Shown: positions 1 to 6,239 of the stretch, in pieces
How positions within the stretch are numbered: the first letter of the stretch is position 1
How the letters are laid out: every line of letters starts with the position of its first letter
From: Moorella sp. E308F
GTDB lineage: Bacteria > Bacillota > DSM-521 > Neomoorellales > Neomoorellaceae
Direction of reading: 5' to 3'
Assembly (NCBI RefSeq): GCF_006538365.1
Contig: NZ_BJKN01000003.1
Span: 267,965 to 331,964, forward strand
DNA length: 64,000 bases
Notes under the pieces: model-generated
What the model saw: the letters and a program-made list of their open reading frames with translations, nothing else
Told to the model about the DNA's origin: nothing
Database searches by the model: none
Program-made: the position numbers and the translations under genes

Positions 1-70
1 TCTCCCCACGGAGCATTTCCAACACGATGTTTGCTTTTTGTTCAGCTGTAAATTTTTTTCTCTTTTCCAT
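1..70 (-). CDS. IS3-type transposase OrfA, N-terminus (cut by window edge)
   Basis: Read on the minus strand from the ATG at 70-68, the 23 visible codons give MEKRKKFTAEQKANIVLEML followed by RGE. The 'KKFTAEQKANIV' pattern is typical of the helix-turn-helix start of IS3-family OrfA proteins. A GGTGA ribosome site precedes the start. The rest lies outside the window, so completeness cannot be judged. It abuts a duplicated scrap of the agr locus at 128-218, and this mobile element is a plausible agent of that rearrangement (inference). Confidence 0.7.
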   Translation of the reverse strand, partial: MEKRKKFTAEQKANIVLEMLRGE

Positions 71-127
71 GTCACCATTATAGCTTAATTTTTTTGTTTT
101 TGTGTCTTAACCTATGGGTCCATTATA

Positions 128-169
128 AGTTGGCTGGCCTGGTACCAGCCAGAAGCTCCACGGGAAATT
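128..169 (+). pseudogene. agrD 3'-end remnant
   Basis: Codons 128-169 read SWLAWYQPEAPREI, matching the C-terminal half of the intact AgrD-like peptide at 4384-4509 almost residue for residue. The leader-encoding 5' half is missing, and the frame upstream has no matching leader. The similarity continues into the operator at 179-218 and on to about 290, parallel to the sequence after the intact gene. This is therefore a relic of a segmental duplication, not a functional peptide gene. Confidence 0.75.
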
Positions 170-178
170 TCGTCTTGC

Positions 179-218
179 AAAAACCGCATTTTATCCCAAT
201 ATTTCCTCATTATATCCC
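179..218 (+). promoter_or_regulatory. Tandem LytTR-type operator, copy 1
   Basis: Two direct repeats (AACCGCATTTTATCCC at 182-197 and TTCCTCATTATATCCC at 203-218) start 21 bp apart, i.e. two helical turns. This is the usual spacing for dimeric LytTR regulators such as AgrA. A TAAAAT -10-like hexamer lies at 249-254, about 31 bp after the second repeat, the same distance as in the copy at 4594-4632. It would control the genes at 407-1175. The binding assignment is inferred from repeat geometry and the adjacent LytTR gene. Confidence 0.6.
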
Positions 219-406
219 ACAAATGGATCCGATTAGGAAAAGTGATGGTAAAATAGAGGTAGCAAGAATAGGGAGGGGGAGATACCGTTGGATTAATTTA
301 GAAGAATTATATAAAATGTAACCCCGGTGAAGGGAGAAAGTGGATGAACTAACAGCATGCGCAGCAAAGTGAAGTTGCTGTAATAACAAAAAATAATGTT
401 AAAGAC

Positions 407-946
407 ATGTTAGAAAAGGCTAATAAAGGCGACCAAGCTGCCATTAAAGCACTTTCCAAATTCTCAATTTTTGACTCCAAGAAAGTTGCAGAAAAAGTTA
501 ATGGTGTACGAGTATACGCTGGCCAAACCAAAACCATTGATTTCGGAGACGGAAGTGCCATTACATTAGACTATCAGATAACTTCCGGTGGAACTCAAAT
601 CCCAGCCTATTATACATGGGAAGGCGATTACGTACATGCTATAGCGATGCATAAGTGGTTTCTTTTGGGAGTAGAAGTTGGAAGATACGAGTTACATTTC
701 ATTTATGATCCTAATGGCAACAATCCCATTCTCAAGGAAAAATGGGATACTGGGTCTGCTATTTATGGTAATCAGGTGAATCCGCTTGGAACAGATGTGT
801 TAACCGATGTTGGCCCTTACGCAGTTGGTGTTACTGGTAGGGGTATTTGGTCAACAAATATGGGGGCAAGCCAAACAGTAAAAATAAACGCTTATGGATA
901 CTTTGATCCCTCTCTCAATTGGGCTGAAGAATGGATATATTATTAG
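407..946 (+). CDS. Putative agr-controlled effector, 5' end probably damaged
   Basis: Encodes 179 residues with no recognised domain. The body is rich in Gly, Thr, Tyr and Trp and ends in an aromatic tail (AEEWIYY), as the protein at 4759 does (IDFYSIY). The frame stays open upstream to 353 but has no start codon, and the ATG at 407 has no ribosome site and no signal peptide. The secretion signal therefore seems to be lost or out of frame, or the real start is further up with a frameshift. It lies behind a LytTR-type operator duplicated from the one before 4759, suggesting that the two are diverged paralogues. A secreted bacteriocin-like role is only a guess. Confidence 0.5.
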   Translation: MLEKANKGDQAAIKALSKFSIFDSKKVAEKVNGVRVYAGQTKTIDFGDGSAITLDYQITSGGTQIPAYYTWEGDYVHAIAMHKWFLLGVEVGRYELHFIYDPNGNNPILKEKWDTGSAIYGNQVNPLGTDVLTDVGPYAVGVTGRGIWSTNMGASQTVKINAYGYFDPSLNWAEEWIYY

Positions 947-968
947 TTTAACCTAACGGGGGGTCTAT

Positions 969-1175
969 ATGCTAATGCCTCCAGAGGCACCATGGTATGC
1001 CGGTTTCTACAACTCCTTCCTATTGCTAATTCCTATAGTGATTATAATTGTTTTTGGGATCTTATTAACGACGATTATTGTTTTATTGCTTAGATTGAAG
1101 AAAATGCAAGAAGAAATAACCATAAAATTGGACAGAATATCTAAAGAGGTTACGAACAGGATTAAGGAGAAATAA
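969..1175 (+). CDS. Small single-span membrane protein
   Basis: 68 residues: a short outer segment, one long hydrophobic helix (about residues 16-43) and a charged, coiled-coil-like tail (residues 44-68, Lys/Glu rich). A strong GGGGGG-type ribosome site precedes the ATG, and the gene follows 407-946 by 22 bp, so the two are probably co-transcribed. Size and position would suit an immunity or accessory protein for the upstream product, but nothing in the sequence proves this. Confidence 0.6.
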   Translation: MLMPPEAPWYAGFYNSFLLLIPIVIIIVFGILLTTIIVLLLRLKKMQEEITIKLDRISKEVTNRIKEK

Positions 1176-1405
1176 CCCCTCACACTTAAAAGCAGTAAAC
1201 CGACTGAACAACTTATGAATCGGGAAAAAATAGAGGGCGCTGTGCGTCTAGCTGGCGAACAGCGCCTTATAAAGGGAAAATTTTGTACTAAAGTGCGATT
1301 TCGAGCAGCCTGGAGGAGGGCATATGATCTGATAGCCTGATGGTGCTCCGGAAAAGCATTTCAAGCATAAGTTAAATGTTAGCTAAAACACGTTCTTTAT
1401 TGCTG

Positions 1406-1437
1406 CCGCCCGGCGCGTTGTTGCCAGGCGGTTTTTT
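1406..1437 (+). terminator. Rho-independent terminator
   Basis: CCGCCCGGC (1406-1414) pairs with GCCAGGCGG (1423-1431), with one mismatch and an 8-base loop, followed by TTTTTT. It would end transcripts coming from 407-1175 and insulate the agr-like run. Confidence 0.75.
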
Positions 1438-1584
1438 ATTACCCTTCCTGGCGATATAGAACCAGCCGCGGAGTGCCATTCTATGACAGGAAAATTTAGG
1501 TTTATGGCGAATAATGACATTAAATACAGTGTAGGGAAAACCGGTCCGAAAGGCTGAGACATAAAGCCATGCATTTCATCCGCC

Positions 1585-1623
1585 AAATACCGCATCATAT
1601 CCTTCTAAAACCGCATTTTGCCC
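1585..1623 (+). promoter_or_regulatory. Tandem LytTR-type operator, copy 2
   Basis: AAATACCGCATCATATCC (1585-1602) and TAAAACCGCATTTTGCCC (1606-1623) share a TA-ACCGCAT core 21 bp apart, like the operators at 179-218 and 4594-4632. The position just before the sensor/regulator genes implies positive autoregulation, as in classical agr. A clear -10 box at the expected distance is not obvious because the ribosome site follows quickly. Confidence 0.55.
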
Positions 1624-1675
1624 TAATTCGGGAGGAAAGAGAAGCCGGTCCAAGAATATCTTGGAGGTAAAAAAT

Positions 1676-2140
1676 ATGGATAAAATGCCGTTAATAAATT
1701 TGGCCTTACAGTCATTCCCGGAAAGTATCCTGTTATTGCTTTTTGGCTCAGGCCTATTTAAACGTTGTCCCAGCATTTACAGGCTACTAATTGGGGCGGC
1801 CCTTTCCTCCATAATTTCCTATTTTATCAGGAGATTGCCTTTTCCTTATGGCGTTCATGCCCTGATAGGGGTTGCGGTTTTAACTCTAATATTTTGGCTA
1901 ATATTTAATTTGGATTTCAATCAAAGTTTGGTAGCATCGCTGGCAACCCTGGCCACCCTTGGCGCTATTGAAATAATTTTACTGCCAGTGGAGAGTCATT
2001 TATTAGGATTAAGCCGGTTTAGTGACGCCTGGCCTGATCCCAAATTGCGCCTGCTTATGGCCATACCGGAATTGATAATTCTATTATTAATAACATATTT
2101 ACTATATAGGGATAACCGCTGTTTTAAAGGAGATTTGTGA
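1676..2140 (+). CDS. Polytopic membrane protein, probable detached sensor domain
   Basis: 154 residues with about five hydrophobic segments and no cytoplasmic domain. The start is placed at the ATG at 1676, seven bases after GGAGGT (1663-1668), rather than the TTG inside the ribosome site. The stop is directly adjacent to the start of the kinase gene at 2141, so translation is coupled. In AgrC-type kinases the N-terminus is a multi-span peptide receptor, while the kinase next door has only two spans. A split receptor is the simplest reading, but no family name can be assigned. Confidence 0.65.
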   Translation: MDKMPLINLALQSFPESILLLLFGSGLFKRCPSIYRLLIGAALSSIISYFIRRLPFPYGVHALIGVAVLTLIFWLIFNLDFNQSLVASLATLATLGAIEIILLPVESHLLGLSRFSDAWPDPKLRLLMAIPELIILLLITYLLYRDNRCFKGDL

Positions 2141-2977
2141 ATGGCTACCGCAAATCATAGTTACTGGTTAATCGCGGCCTTGCTAGGTCAGTCCTTACTA
2201 ATAAACATTGCTGTCCAGAGCCTGCAGCTTTCCCAATATACCTACTATAAACCGATAGTCATAGGAGCGAACCTTGTTAGCCTGTCATTTTACCTTATGG
2301 TTCTCTTATTGATTAAAAAAATATCGGAATTAAAGCAGCAACAGCAAGTCCTGGAGCGAAAAGAAACGGAGCTGGACAGCGTTCAGAGCCTCTTGCGCAC
2401 CGTACGCGCCCAAAGGCACGATATCATTAACCATCTTGACACTGTCTATGCCCTGCTTTCCTTGGGAAAAGAAGTCCCGGCCCGGGAGTACGCCTCGCAT
2501 TTAGTGCAAATTGCGGGCAATACCAGCCACCTGATACGGTTGGAGCAACCGGTGATTGCTGCCTTCTTACAAAATAAACTCAATCAGGCTTTAACTAAGG
2601 AAATAACTATGTTAATTGACGTAAGTACGGATTTGAAGGATTTGGCTGTAAAGCCGTATGCTCTAATTACTATCCTGGGGAACCTCCTGGAAAACGCCAT
2701 GGAGGCGGTAGAGACCTTACCGCCCGATCAGCGCTGGATAGAATTGGAGATATCCAGGGCCAACCTGTATTATCTATTTACCGTCAGCAATTCCGGCCCT
2801 CCCTTAGACTCCGCAATTAAAGATGTTATCTTCCAGCCGGGCGTCTCTACCAAAGGGCCTGACCGGGGCCTGGGCTTGGCTACGGTAAAGGAAGTGGTCG
2901 AGAACCACGGCGGGACAATTGAAGTCGAGGCTTACCCGGTTACTTTCCGGGTTAAGTTTCCCTGTCAAAGTACATAA
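2141..2977 (+). CDS. AgrC-like sensor histidine kinase (SpoOB-type)
   Basis: 278 residues: two hydrophobic segments (about 8-24 and 38-59), a linker coiled coil (60-85), a SpoOB-type dimerisation helix with the phosphoacceptor in RHDIINH (His93), then a GHKL ATPase with N-box NLLENAMEA (about 181-189) and G-box GLGLATV (243-249). The RHDxxNH form of the His box is characteristic of AgrC/CitA-like kinases. It should autophosphorylate on peptide binding and pass phosphate to the LytTR regulator 20 bp downstream. The short membrane part suggests cooperation with the protein encoded at 1676-2140. Confidence 0.85.
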   Translation: MATANHSYWLIAALLGQSLLINIAVQSLQLSQYTYYKPIVIGANLVSLSFYLMVLLLIKKISELKQQQQVLERKETELDSVQSLLRTVRAQRHDIINHLDTVYALLSLGKEVPAREYASHLVQIAGNTSHLIRLEQPVIAAFLQNKLNQALTKEITMLIDVSTDLKDLAVKPYALITILGNLLENAMEAVETLPPDQRWIELEISRANLYYLFTVSNSGPPLDSAIKDVIFQPGVSTKGPDRGLGLATVKEVVENHGGTIEVEAYPVTFRVKFPCQST

Positions 2978-2997
2978 GTGGAAGATGAGGTGATTAT

Positions 2998-3729
2998 ATG
3001 CTGACAGCTATAATTGCCGATGACAACGAGGCGGAAAGGACTTATTTTTGCAAATTACTCCGGGAAACTAAAAAGGTAAAAGTACTGGGCGAAGCCGCTG
3101 ATGGCCTGGCAGCCTTGGATTTAGCCTCCCAACTGCGGCCGGATATTGCTTTTTTAGATATCGAAATGCCCGGTCCGAACGGTCTTGAAGTAGCCAGGGA
3201 AATCATGGCAATAATTCCACCAATTTCAATCATCTTTTTTACGGCTCATGCGGAGTATGCCGTCGATGCCTTTGAAATAAACAGCGTCGATTATCTTCTC
3301 AAACCCTTTGACGCCTTCCGCCTAAGGAAAGCCCTGGCTAAAATTGAAGAAAAGCTGGCCCTCAGACAAGTTAATAAAAGAAGTCAAAAGTTAAACAAAC
3401 TGGCTTTAAAAAGCAGGGGAGAAATAATCCTTATCGACCTCAACGAAATAGTGTTTATCGAAAAGAGCGGCAAGAACACAACAATAGTCCATACCGTCAA
3501 AAGGGACTATACCACGAGTCAAACCATTGGAGAACTGGTAGAGCAACTGGAGAGACATGACTGCTTTCAAAGGGTTCATAAGTCATACCTGATTAATTTA
3601 AATATGGTGGAAAGGATCAGCCCTTTTGCCGATAACTCCTTTGTGGTCAGGTTTGCCGGATATAAAAAGGATGCCCTCATTAGCAGGAACAATATTGAAT
3701 TGGTCAAAAAGCATCTTAATCTTATTTAA
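2998..3729 (+). CDS. LytTR-family response regulator (AgrA-like)
   Basis: 243 residues. The receiver domain (1-120) has acidic pocket DD at 8-9, phosphoacceptor Asp54 in FLDIEMPG, and the conserved Lys102 in LLKPFD. The C-terminal LytTR DNA-binding domain (about 140-240) includes the 'F-RVHKSYLINL' region. LytTR proteins bind pairs of short direct repeats about 21 bp apart, and this window has three such pairs. It is likely the direct activator of its own operon and of the genes at 407 and 4759 (inference). Confidence 0.9.
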   Translation: MLTAIIADDNEAERTYFCKLLRETKKVKVLGEAADGLAALDLASQLRPDIAFLDIEMPGPNGLEVAREIMAIIPPISIIFFTAHAEYAVDAFEINSVDYLLKPFDAFRLRKALAKIEEKLALRQVNKRSQKLNKLALKSRGEIILIDLNEIVFIEKSGKNTTIVHTVKRDYTTSQTIGELVEQLERHDCFQRVHKSYLINLNMVERISPFADNSFVVRFAGYKKDALISRNNIELVKKHLNLI

Positions 3730-3745
3730 GCAAAGGACTGATTGA

Positions 3746-4378
3746 ATGCTTCATAACCTATCGCTGCGCCTGGCAAAGTCTTTGGCCTTTAACGGCGGCC
3801 TTGATCCCTCCCGGATACCTGTTATTACTTATGGACTGGAAATAATCCTGGGAATTGTAGTTAAAACATTTTGTTTTTTAGCCATTCCCTCTGTACTGGG
3901 CGTTTTGCCCCAAACCCTGGCAGCCTTCACGGCTTCAGCCCTTTTCCGCCTCCCGGCCGGGGGCGCCCATTGTACGGGCTTCGCTCGTTGTTTATTTGGA
4001 AGCATTGTTGCTTTTACAGTAATTGGGATCCTTGCCAGGTTTATCGGGGGATTGGGCGATTGGACATTGACACTATTTTATATTGTCCTCGGCCTGGCCA
4101 TCCTGTTAACTCTATCCCAGGTTCCCGTAGATAATCCCTCCAGACCGGTTAAAAAACCGGAAGAAAGGTCACATATGCAGAAATGGGCTTTAGGAGTTTT
4201 GTTTTCGTACGTTTTGATGGCAAACGTCCTGCCACTTACGAACGACTTGATTTTCGCGGCTTCCTTAGGGCTACTGCTGCAGCTATTCACGCTACTGCCG
4301 GCAGGTTATAAATTGATGCACCATTATGACATGTTATTAATAAAAGTTACCAGCTCTATTACTAAAGGGGGGAGGTGA
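3746..4378 (+). CDS. agrB: AgrB-family peptide-processing membrane protease
   Basis: 210 residues with several membrane spans. The catalytic pair of the AgrB cysteine endopeptidases is visible as His75 and Cys82 in GGAHCTGFARC, seven residues apart as in the family. AgrB removes the C-terminal tail of the AgrD pre-peptide and closes the (thio)lactone ring. The AgrD-like gene follows after 5 bp and has a strong GGGAGG ribosome site. Length and motif look complete, so the enzyme is probably active. Confidence 0.9.
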   Translation: MLHNLSLRLAKSLAFNGGLDPSRIPVITYGLEIILGIVVKTFCFLAIPSVLGVLPQTLAAFTASALFRLPAGGAHCTGFARCLFGSIVAFTVIGILARFIGGLGDWTLTLFYIVLGLAILLTLSQVPVDNPSRPVKKPEERSHMQKWALGVLFSYVLMANVLPLTNDLIFAASLGLLLQLFTLLPAGYKLMHHYDMLLIKVTSSITKGGR

Positions 4379-4383
4379 TCCGG

Positions 4384-4509
4384 ATGAGGAGACGCTTTTT
4401 ATTTACCCTAGTGGCTAACTTAGCGATATTTGTCGCCCTGCTGGGGGTCCGGCCGACCAGCTGGCTGGCCTGGTACCAACCGGAAGCTCCCCGAGAATTG
4501 TTGAAGTAA
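4384..4509 (+). CDS. agrD: AgrD-like cyclic lactone autoinducer pre-peptide, serine type
   Basis: 41 residues: a positively charged start (MRRR), an amphipathic/hydrophobic leader (residues 5-21), a core around PTSWLAW and the tail YQPEAPRELLK. The acidic, Pro-containing tail right after the core is the AgrB recognition hallmark. Most family members carry Cys four residues before this tail, but here Ser26 is at that position and the peptide has no Cys, so an ester lactone rather than a thiolactone is predicted. Serine AIPs are known from a few staphylococci. The ribosome site GGGAGG precedes the ATG. The ring boundary is inferred, not observed. Confidence 0.8.
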   Translation: MRRRFLFTLVANLAIFVALLGVRPTSWLAWYQPEAPRELLK

Positions 4510-4516
4510 ATTACTA

Positions 4517-4552
4517 AAAGGGGACAGGGAAGAAACCTGCCCCTTTAAAATT
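4517..4552 (+). terminator. Probable terminator after agrD
   Basis: AAAGGGGACAGG pairs with CCTGCCCCTTT across a short loop (one bulged A), followed by a weak T-containing tail. It probably separates the agr run from the operator-controlled gene at 4759. Confidence 0.55.
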
Positions 4553-4593
4553 TGTCAAAGACCCCTGAACCGGCACTGCTGATTTCGTCTGGC

Positions 4594-4632
4594 AAAAACC
4601 GCATTATATCCGCTAAAAACCGCATTATATCC
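4594..4632 (+). promoter_or_regulatory. Tandem LytTR-type operator, copy 3
   Basis: AAAAACCGCATTATATCC occurs twice, at 4594-4611 and 4615-4632, identical over 18 bases and 21 bp apart. A TAAAAT hexamer at 4664-4669 sits about 32 bp after the second repeat, as in copy 1. This is the best-preserved of the three operators, and it precedes the secreted protein gene at 4759. Confidence 0.7.
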
Positions 4633-4758
4633 CAAAAAAAGATCGGATTGGGTAAAATGGTGATAAAATGGAAGCAGGAAATGAAAAGGGGGAGAGATTC
4701 CAATGGATCGTTCCTGTCGTTTTAGATATCTTTATTCAAATTAAAGAAAGGAGTGTTT

Positions 4759-5484
4759 ATGAGAATGAGGAAAATTTGTATAGCGATAATTACTCTGGCC
4801 GTAAGCATATTATTCTGTTCAGTTGCTATAGCTTCTGTGCCCGAGAAAACCCAGCTAAAAAGCAAAGTTAATCAGGAAATAGTAGACGAGTTAATGAAAT
4901 CGCTTAGTTATAATCAAGATTCCTCACCAATAAAGGCTATGGCTTCAGCTAAAGATAAAGATGGCAAACTCCACGAACTCCCGGTTAAAATAGCAACAAA
5001 AAAATTAAGCCAAAAAGTTGCTTCTGATGGTACAATAACTACAGAATATATTACCCTTGCCAGTGTAGAAACATATCAAAGTTCTAGATCATATGATGGT
5101 AAAATAAAAGAGTGTATGTTAACAGAATATGAAACGACTACTGCTAATGGAGGTTTATACTACATTAGATTTCATTGGACGGAAGGATGGTGGGAACGAA
5201 ATAATTTTTCCTATGACGTAAGAAATGCATTTGTATACACTAGCCAAGAAGGACAAAAAATAGATGGAACTTTTTTCTCTGACAGTGATCAGTATGATAT
5301 AGGCGAGCCAATTTGGAATACTTACGGTACCAAAACTGCAGTTTATTCAAATAATACCTGGGACTTCCCTTTTACCCAAAAGGATCCTCCAGGAGCGTGG
5401 GGCACCAGAGTGGGCTCTGACCTGTATGTAAACGGACAATTATTATATGACGATTGGTGGATCGATTTTTATTCAATATATTAA
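4759..5484 (+). CDS. Secreted protein, probable agr-regulated effector
   Basis: 241 residues beginning with a clear Sec signal peptide (MRMRKI, a hydrophobic stretch, then a likely cleavage after AIA). The mature part is rich in Tyr, Trp, Asn and Thr, with a YYIRFHWTEGWWE segment and an aromatic C-terminus (WWIDFYSIY). No enzyme motif is seen. The ATG at 4759 follows AAAGGAG by five bases. The placement behind the strongest LytTR-type operator and the signal peptide suggest a peptide-signal-induced exported product. A large bacteriocin or surface adhesin are the two ideas, neither proven. Base composition is AT-richer than the agr genes. Confidence 0.6.
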   Translation: MRMRKICIAIITLAVSILFCSVAIASVPEKTQLKSKVNQEIVDELMKSLSYNQDSSPIKAMASAKDKDGKLHELPVKIATKKLSQKVASDGTITTEYITLASVETYQSSRSYDGKIKECMLTEYETTTANGGLYYIRFHWTEGWWERNNFSYDVRNAFVYTSQEGQKIDGTFFSDSDQYDIGEPIWNTYGTKTAVYSNNTWDFPFTQKDPPGAWGTRVGSDLYVNGQLLYDDWWIDFYSIY

Positions 5485-5577
5485 TGTAAACAGAATACCT
5501 ATTCCTTAGGTCTGAGCTTTTACAACGAATGTAAAGTGGGCTCAAACCTATTTTTACCGCAATGGGAGTTGATCAAA

Positions 5578-6132
5578 ATGCTTTATAATAACCGTTCCCA
5601 TATAAAGTGGCAATTACTTGCTATGGGGTTGATATTGGTATTTCTAATTATTATAGTGGGATGCCTTTATAAAGAGACCAAGGTTTTTTTGACGCCTGAA
5701 GAAGCATTGTTCTCTATCAATCAAGGGATGCGTATTATTGACAAAAAACCTTTAGGAAACGATTTTATCTTTTTTGCTAAAGAAAAAAACAATGATTATA
5801 TAGTACGAGTGGAACATAAAGGAAACGGTTGGGTTGTAGTTCCAGGCATATCTTCTTCTTCAATGCTGTCTGCGTCTGACAATATGAATGTAGGAATTGA
5901 TACGTATAAAAGTGAAGATGAAGCAAAATCTTATACTCTAGTGTATGGAACTGTATATAATCCAAATATATTTGTAATAGAGATCCATTTTCCTGACAGC
6001 GTAATAATGAAAGAAATGGTTAATGGTGAAGGATTTTTAGTAGTTAGGGAAGGGTTTTACCTAAACAGGGGTGAAAAAATACGCGTGCTAGGATTGGATG
6101 ATAAAGGAAATAAGATGTGGCAAAGTCAATAG
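5578..6132 (+). CDS. Putative lipoprotein, unknown function
   Basis: 184 residues. After MLYNNRSHIKW comes a hydrophobic stretch ending in IIIVGC, a lipobox placing Cys near residue 28, so membrane anchoring is likely. The start at 5578 follows a GGGAG site. The rest (strands such as GNGWVVVPG and GFYLNRGEKIRVLG) suggests a small beta-rich domain. It lies 93 bp after the secreted protein in the same orientation and could be its immunity or partner protein. No family recognised. Confidence 0.6.
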   Translation: MLYNNRSHIKWQLLAMGLILVFLIIIVGCLYKETKVFLTPEEALFSINQGMRIIDKKPLGNDFIFFAKEKNNDYIVRVEHKGNGWVVVPGISSSSMLSASDNMNVGIDTYKSEDEAKSYTLVYGTVYNPNIFVIEIHFPDSVIMKEMVNGEGFLVVREGFYLNRGEKIRVLGLDDKGNKMWQSQ

Positions 6133-6239
6133 TTTTATAAAGGGTGAGCAAATATGGACCCTGGGTGACCTGGAACCTAATTGGATCGAGTTATGTATTA
6201 ATTCCAACTTTCCTTCTCTGCCAAAAGGAGGAAGAAATA

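Follow-up and report, generated by a model that had tools for sequence, protein, structure and literature searches.

A serine-type agr operon in Moorella sp. E308F with a predicted lactone signal and a probable two-gene receptor

The stretch of Moorella sp. E308F DNA analyzed here, 64,000 nucleotides long and referred to as the window, carries a five-gene operon, encoded on the + strand in the order X-agrC-agrA-agrB-agrD. The third gene, agrA (2998..3729, +), encodes a response regulator that combines a receiver with a LytTR DNA-binding domain (Pfam Response_reg and LytTR); it also matches the AgrA model NF046049 at 5.3e-12, a score under that model's cut-off. The product of agrB (3746..4378, +) is a membrane cysteine protease of 210 aa, predicted to trim and cyclize AgrD, which matches PF04647 at 8.7e-30 (103.9 bits, cut-off 23). 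The catalytic pair, His75 and Cys82, is conserved without exception in all 55 AgrB partners compared, whether the accompanying AgrD is of the Ser, Cys or Thr type. A first-pass annotation had placed an intact AgrB with this residue pair next to agrD, and both the domain match and the residues bear this out. The last gene of the operon is agrD (4384..4509, +). A search of window positions 1-6200 against Rfam returned no match, and an RNAIII-like RNA was not recognized there. Likewise, no solved structure resembling AgrB or X by sequence was found.

The two genes at the head of the operon would together form the receptor. In staphylococcal agr systems, AgrC is a single polypeptide. Here, the multi-spanning sensor and the kinase are encoded by separate genes with separate ribosome sites, and the sensor half appears to be X. 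This gene (1676..2140, +) encodes 154 aa with about five transmembrane segments, and its TGA stop directly abuts the ATG of agrC (2141..2977, +), whose product of 278 aa contains two predicted transmembrane segments followed by SPOB_a and HATPase domains. Homology to AgrC was found for each half. On the Staphylococcus AgrC model (NCBIfam NF046015), the match of the short AgrC is confined to residues 143-396. A profile built from four separately encoded X proteins aligns with residues 1-147 of the fused, 448-aa AgrC of genome G058 (1.3e-14) and, less strongly but also collinearly, with the fused AgrCs of G032 and G035 (2e-7 and 9e-7); the profile was searched against 744 reading frames, so that these E-values are those of a small set. 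The fused AgrC of G058 itself spans residues 12-395 of the Staphylococcus model. This collinear match to the N-terminal region of fused AgrCs makes it most likely that AgrC is split here and that X is its sensor half. The stop of X and the start of agrC touch or nearly touch, and the stops and frames vary between genomes. Read-through of the stop from X into AgrC, which share a frame in the window, was considered and ruled out: the frame differs in G009, the stop codons are not the same, and agrC is served by a separate ribosome site.

X is also found as X-agrB-agrD at G008:C1:3307571, G017:C1:3221897, G010:C1:432675 and other Cys-type loci, where a kinase or regulator gene was not recognized nearby. 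This company makes a role in processing or export conceivable, and X might accordingly be read as an unrelated membrane accessory of AgrB and AgrD, leaving the short AgrC to sense the peptide alone. We consider this unlikely, given the collinearity of X with the sensor region in all three fused AgrCs and the complementary coverage of the Staphylococcus model, which one fused AgrC matches from residue 12 and the short AgrC only from residue 143. Returning to X as a sensor half, one kinase could be shared among several X sensors, since X accompanies agrB-agrD without a nearby kinase gene. We lean, with some reserve, towards the broader proposal that Moorella and related bacteria use a two-protein receptor for autoinducing peptides (AIPs), made of a five-segment X and a two-segment AgrC, in which the kinase could serve several X proteins, and that the same families close the ring through Thr as well as through Cys or Ser. 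The receptor appears to come in two pieces, and this is less usual than a Ser-closed ring. No paper on a split AgrC was found in the open-access literature, which is weak evidence of absence.

The agrD reading frame comprises 126 bases, from the ATG at 4384 to the stop at 4509, and is preceded by a strong ribosome site (GGGGGGAGGTGATCCGG). It encodes a 41-aa precursor, MRRRFLFTLVANLAIFVALLGVRPTSWLAWYQPEAPRELLK, which contains no Cys and matches TIGR04223 ('AgrD family cyclic lactone autoinducer peptide') at 3.4e-11 (43 bits, cut-off 19); in control genomes the same model gave zero matches above the cut-off. The peptide has the layout of the family, a hydrophobic leader (residues 1-25), a core holding the ring (S26-W30) and a tail (Y31-K41) with the conserved [QE]P, and the residue available for ring closure, Cys or in lactone types Ser, is Ser26. 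The codons of the predicted ring SWLAW lie at 4459..4473 (+), beginning with AGC for Ser26. The first-pass annotation had described a 41-residue, AgrD-like peptide that lacks Cys and has Ser26 spaced four residues from a YQPE tail. The translation and the family score agree with this description, and the count is correct: WLAW stands between Ser26 and Y31-Q-P-E.

Comparison across the phylum gives this Ser a clear position. Among 122 different AgrDs, the residue five positions ahead of the conserved Y/H takes only three forms (Cys 71, Ser 45, Thr 6), and neighboring positions vary widely. Ser-types thus exceed one third of this sample. Its proportions are not those of an unbiased census, because a Thr/Ser-type profile was used to retrieve the second half, and the invariance of [QE]P in this set is by construction, as that motif was used to collect it. 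The alignment of AgrD homologues, which the first-pass annotation had suggested as a check, puts Ser26 exactly at the position where all 122 peptides have Cys, Ser or Thr. On a tree of the AgrB partners, the Ser, Cys and Thr states need 8 changes compared with a shuffled mean of 20, although the number of switches is rough because this quick tree has long branches. The AgrBs that accompany SWLAW peptides form one clade (100), nested in a group with 22 members of the Ser type and 2 of the Cys type. Thr-type AgrDs occur at G001:C27:15299, G017:C1:2414367, G023:C17:30429, L213, L217 and L221 (for example AATGPWS-YQPEVP) and share a subfamily with Ser-type (G004, G011, L214) and Cys-type (G054, L215) members. 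In titles and abstracts of the open-access literature we found no precedent for a Thr-closed AIP, again weak evidence of absence; on that basis, a Thr-closed lactone, if real, would apparently be new.

The relatives that share the AgrD peptide of the window belong to Moorella. SWLAW or SWMAW was read in 14 distinct copies from six Moorella genomes, including that of E308F, and Ser is encoded in all of them, by AGC or AGT. In ten intact SWLAW copies, pN/pS is 0.018 for the nine core codons, 0.204 for the leader and 0.240 for the tail. The claim of purifying selection on the core rests on this pairwise comparison; when variable codons were simply counted in core and leader, Fisher's test showed no significant difference (p = 0.32). 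Searching 84,980 named genomes with the AgrB protein yielded no confirmed relative, and the pattern W-x-A-W-Y-Q-P occurred in the same genomes in 81 stretches, among which, in frames of fewer than 120 residues, the sole AgrD was that of Moorella thermoacetica DSM 21394 (L138), a set from which records near the window may be missing. Because the Ser form is common to every Moorella copy read and its core is under strong purifying selection, a point error at Ser26 is excluded on comparative grounds.

A Ser in this place might instead be a decayed Cys, the precursor being no longer cyclized and the locus on its way to being lost. Decay is certainly present in the genus, where many agr copies are broken or orphaned, including a relic in the window, a copy in G008 and extra AgrDs in G004 and G009. 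Yet the intact operons of G000, G004, G005, G009 and G010 are all of the Ser type, constraint on the AgrD peptide is greatest in the core, and Ser-types are common in the sampled phylum. The second agrD of the E308F genome, at C2:72877, is Ser-type too (VWPAS-VLLW-HQPE). A third locus at C1:1196403 (L078) is the remnant of an agrB-agrD pair disrupted by stops and a shift of frame, with a broken AgrB and out-of-frame agrD remains that resemble the Cys-type of relatives, apparently without the Cys itself; every intact AgrD found in this genome is therefore Ser-type. Cys-type AgrDs are also present in other Moorella genomes. We regard loss of an ancestral Cys with loss of cyclization as very improbable. 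As a separate observation, G009 and G004 each carry several additional SWLAW agrD copies (L110, L111, L112, L113) in which agrB is broken or absent and which are mostly followed by AgrA-type sites.

The relic lies at the left end of the window (128..169, +) and is what remains of a second agrD, its 3' part (SWLAWYQPEAPRE...), fused to one end of an insertion sequence (IS). Positions 128-166 encode SWLAWYQPEAPRE and are 87% identical in DNA to 4459-4497. On its left the relic directly adjoins the terminus of an IS3-type element, and ten N in the assembly immediately precede the window; such an element end lies on both sides of this gap (window 1-127 and L109:15551-15966). Besides the agrD 3' end, the locus retains a partly degenerate AgrA-type double site (184..217, +, 1 mismatch) and a reading frame (407..946, +), probably a remnant, in which neither a signal-peptide-like start nor a family match was seen. 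G010 holds the same relic (L115), with a slightly different junction and a frame 99% identical to 407..946. The first-pass annotation had taken the sequence kept in this relic to mean that Ser is ancestral and not a point error. The absence of an error stands, and is better seen in the relatives; the relic itself, as a broken copy of the same family, is weak independent evidence. It supports a duplicated, decaying locus and is not strong independent proof of ancestry.

Closure through Thr25, giving a six-residue ring TSWLAW, has in its favor that Thr25 directly precedes Ser26 and that Thr holds the ring position in other AgrDs, but it is scarcely credible, since Cys-type relatives with the same KPT motif place their Cys at the Ser26 position (KPTC) and the preceding residue is mostly Ala (85 of 122 AgrDs), so that no nucleophile is required there.

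Putative binding sites of the AgrA type surround the operon. Three repeats spaced by 21 bp (CCGCATNNTATCC; 1569..1623, +) precede it as a predicted autoinduction site, and a double site with both half-sites perfect (4599..4632, +, 0 mismatches) lies behind agrD; the arrangement is that of putative AgrA targets, direct repeats two helical turns apart. In aligned promoter regions, a -10-like TAAAAT (4664..4669, +; TATAAT in relatives) follows 31 bp behind the double site. Next comes a gene for a 241-aa exported protein with a signal-peptide-like start (4759..5484, +), which its position marks as a predicted AgrA target. A further CCGCATNNTATCC repeat is located at C3:265186, left of the window. 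With up to two mismatches allowed, the 3.06-Mb genome contains five AgrA-type sites, all within 8 kb, and none of the reversed repeat pattern; each site precedes a -10 or the operon start. Other Moorella agrD copies are followed by the same boxes, mostly with TATAAT or a similar sequence about 30 bp further downstream, and the genes behind the boxes differ between strains, many having a signal-peptide-like start. The candidate targets compared with Pfam and NCBIfam, 4759..5484 among them, gave no match to a known family, and the product of 4759..5484 has no relative in the other Moorella genomes. Left of the window, at C3:265400-266204 (L109:13401-14205), a gene for an exported protein follows an AgrA-type site and is broken into two frames, where its relatives in G004 and G009 form a single frame of about 270 aa. 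The distribution of sites fits an AgrA that would activate the operon it belongs to, together with a group of exported proteins.

We propose, with high confidence, that the locus is a complete Ser-type agr quorum-sensing operon with a lactone signal closed by Ser26, a receptor made of X and AgrC, and autoinduction through AgrA. The leader would anchor AgrD, after which Cys82 of AgrB, aided by His75, would cut the W30/Y31 bond and hold the peptide as a thioester. Attack by the Ser26 hydroxyl would then yield a lactone ring of five residues and 16 atoms, [SWLAW], which may carry a short tail, for example RPT. The residues ahead of the ring (RPT|S) make a poor signal-peptidase site, and we count this against the proposal. 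The exported ring might be sensed at the membrane by X with the short AgrC, which would phosphorylate AgrA; AgrA could then bind the 21-bp-spaced repeats and raise expression of its own operon and of the neighboring exported-protein gene. A lactone in place of a thiolactone had been put forward in the first-pass annotation, and on the sequence evidence this looks like the right prediction because of the position of Ser26, its sharing across Moorella, the purifying selection on the core and the catalytic pair of the adjoining AgrB.

Ser-closed rings are already known from other bacteria. The AgrD of Clostridium thermocellum (Clo1313_2818) gives rise to a Ser-closed five-residue lactone, whose identity was confirmed by LC-MS/MS comparison with a synthetic standard (Verbeke et al. 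2017, PMC5322536). Like Moorella, for which such a ring is predicted, this is a thermophilic member of the Firmicutes; however, no agr operon was found around that AgrD (PMC5322536), whereas Moorella has a whole operon, with the ring SWLAW. The AIP of the Staphylococcus intermedius group (S. pseudintermedius) is a proven lactone, cited as RIPT[STGFF] (PMC3673130, PMC12312760), which has Ser for Cys at the same place, a five-residue ring and IPT before it, compared with RPT in Moorella. The gene order differs, being agrBDCA in that group and X-C-A-B-D in Moorella. GBAP, of the agr-like fsr operon of Enterococcus faecalis, is a proven Ser-closed lactone (PMC12312760, PMC3673130), but its ring has nine residues in contrast to the five predicted for Moorella (PMC12312760). 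Since Ser-lactones are proven elsewhere and Ser-types exceed one third of the AgrDs sampled, the Moorella peptide is much less unusual than the first-pass annotation suggested; the ring chemistry is known and routine in this phylum.

No paper on agr in Moorella was found in the open-access literature, itself weak evidence of absence. The operon described here adds a full, testable Ser-lactone agr system from a thermophilic acetogen genus. It also illustrates how a single position of AgrD alternates between Cys, Ser and Thr while the processing enzyme AgrB retains the same catalytic pair. The split receptor, if true, would let one ask which half recognizes the peptide, and whether sensors and kinases are exchangeable.
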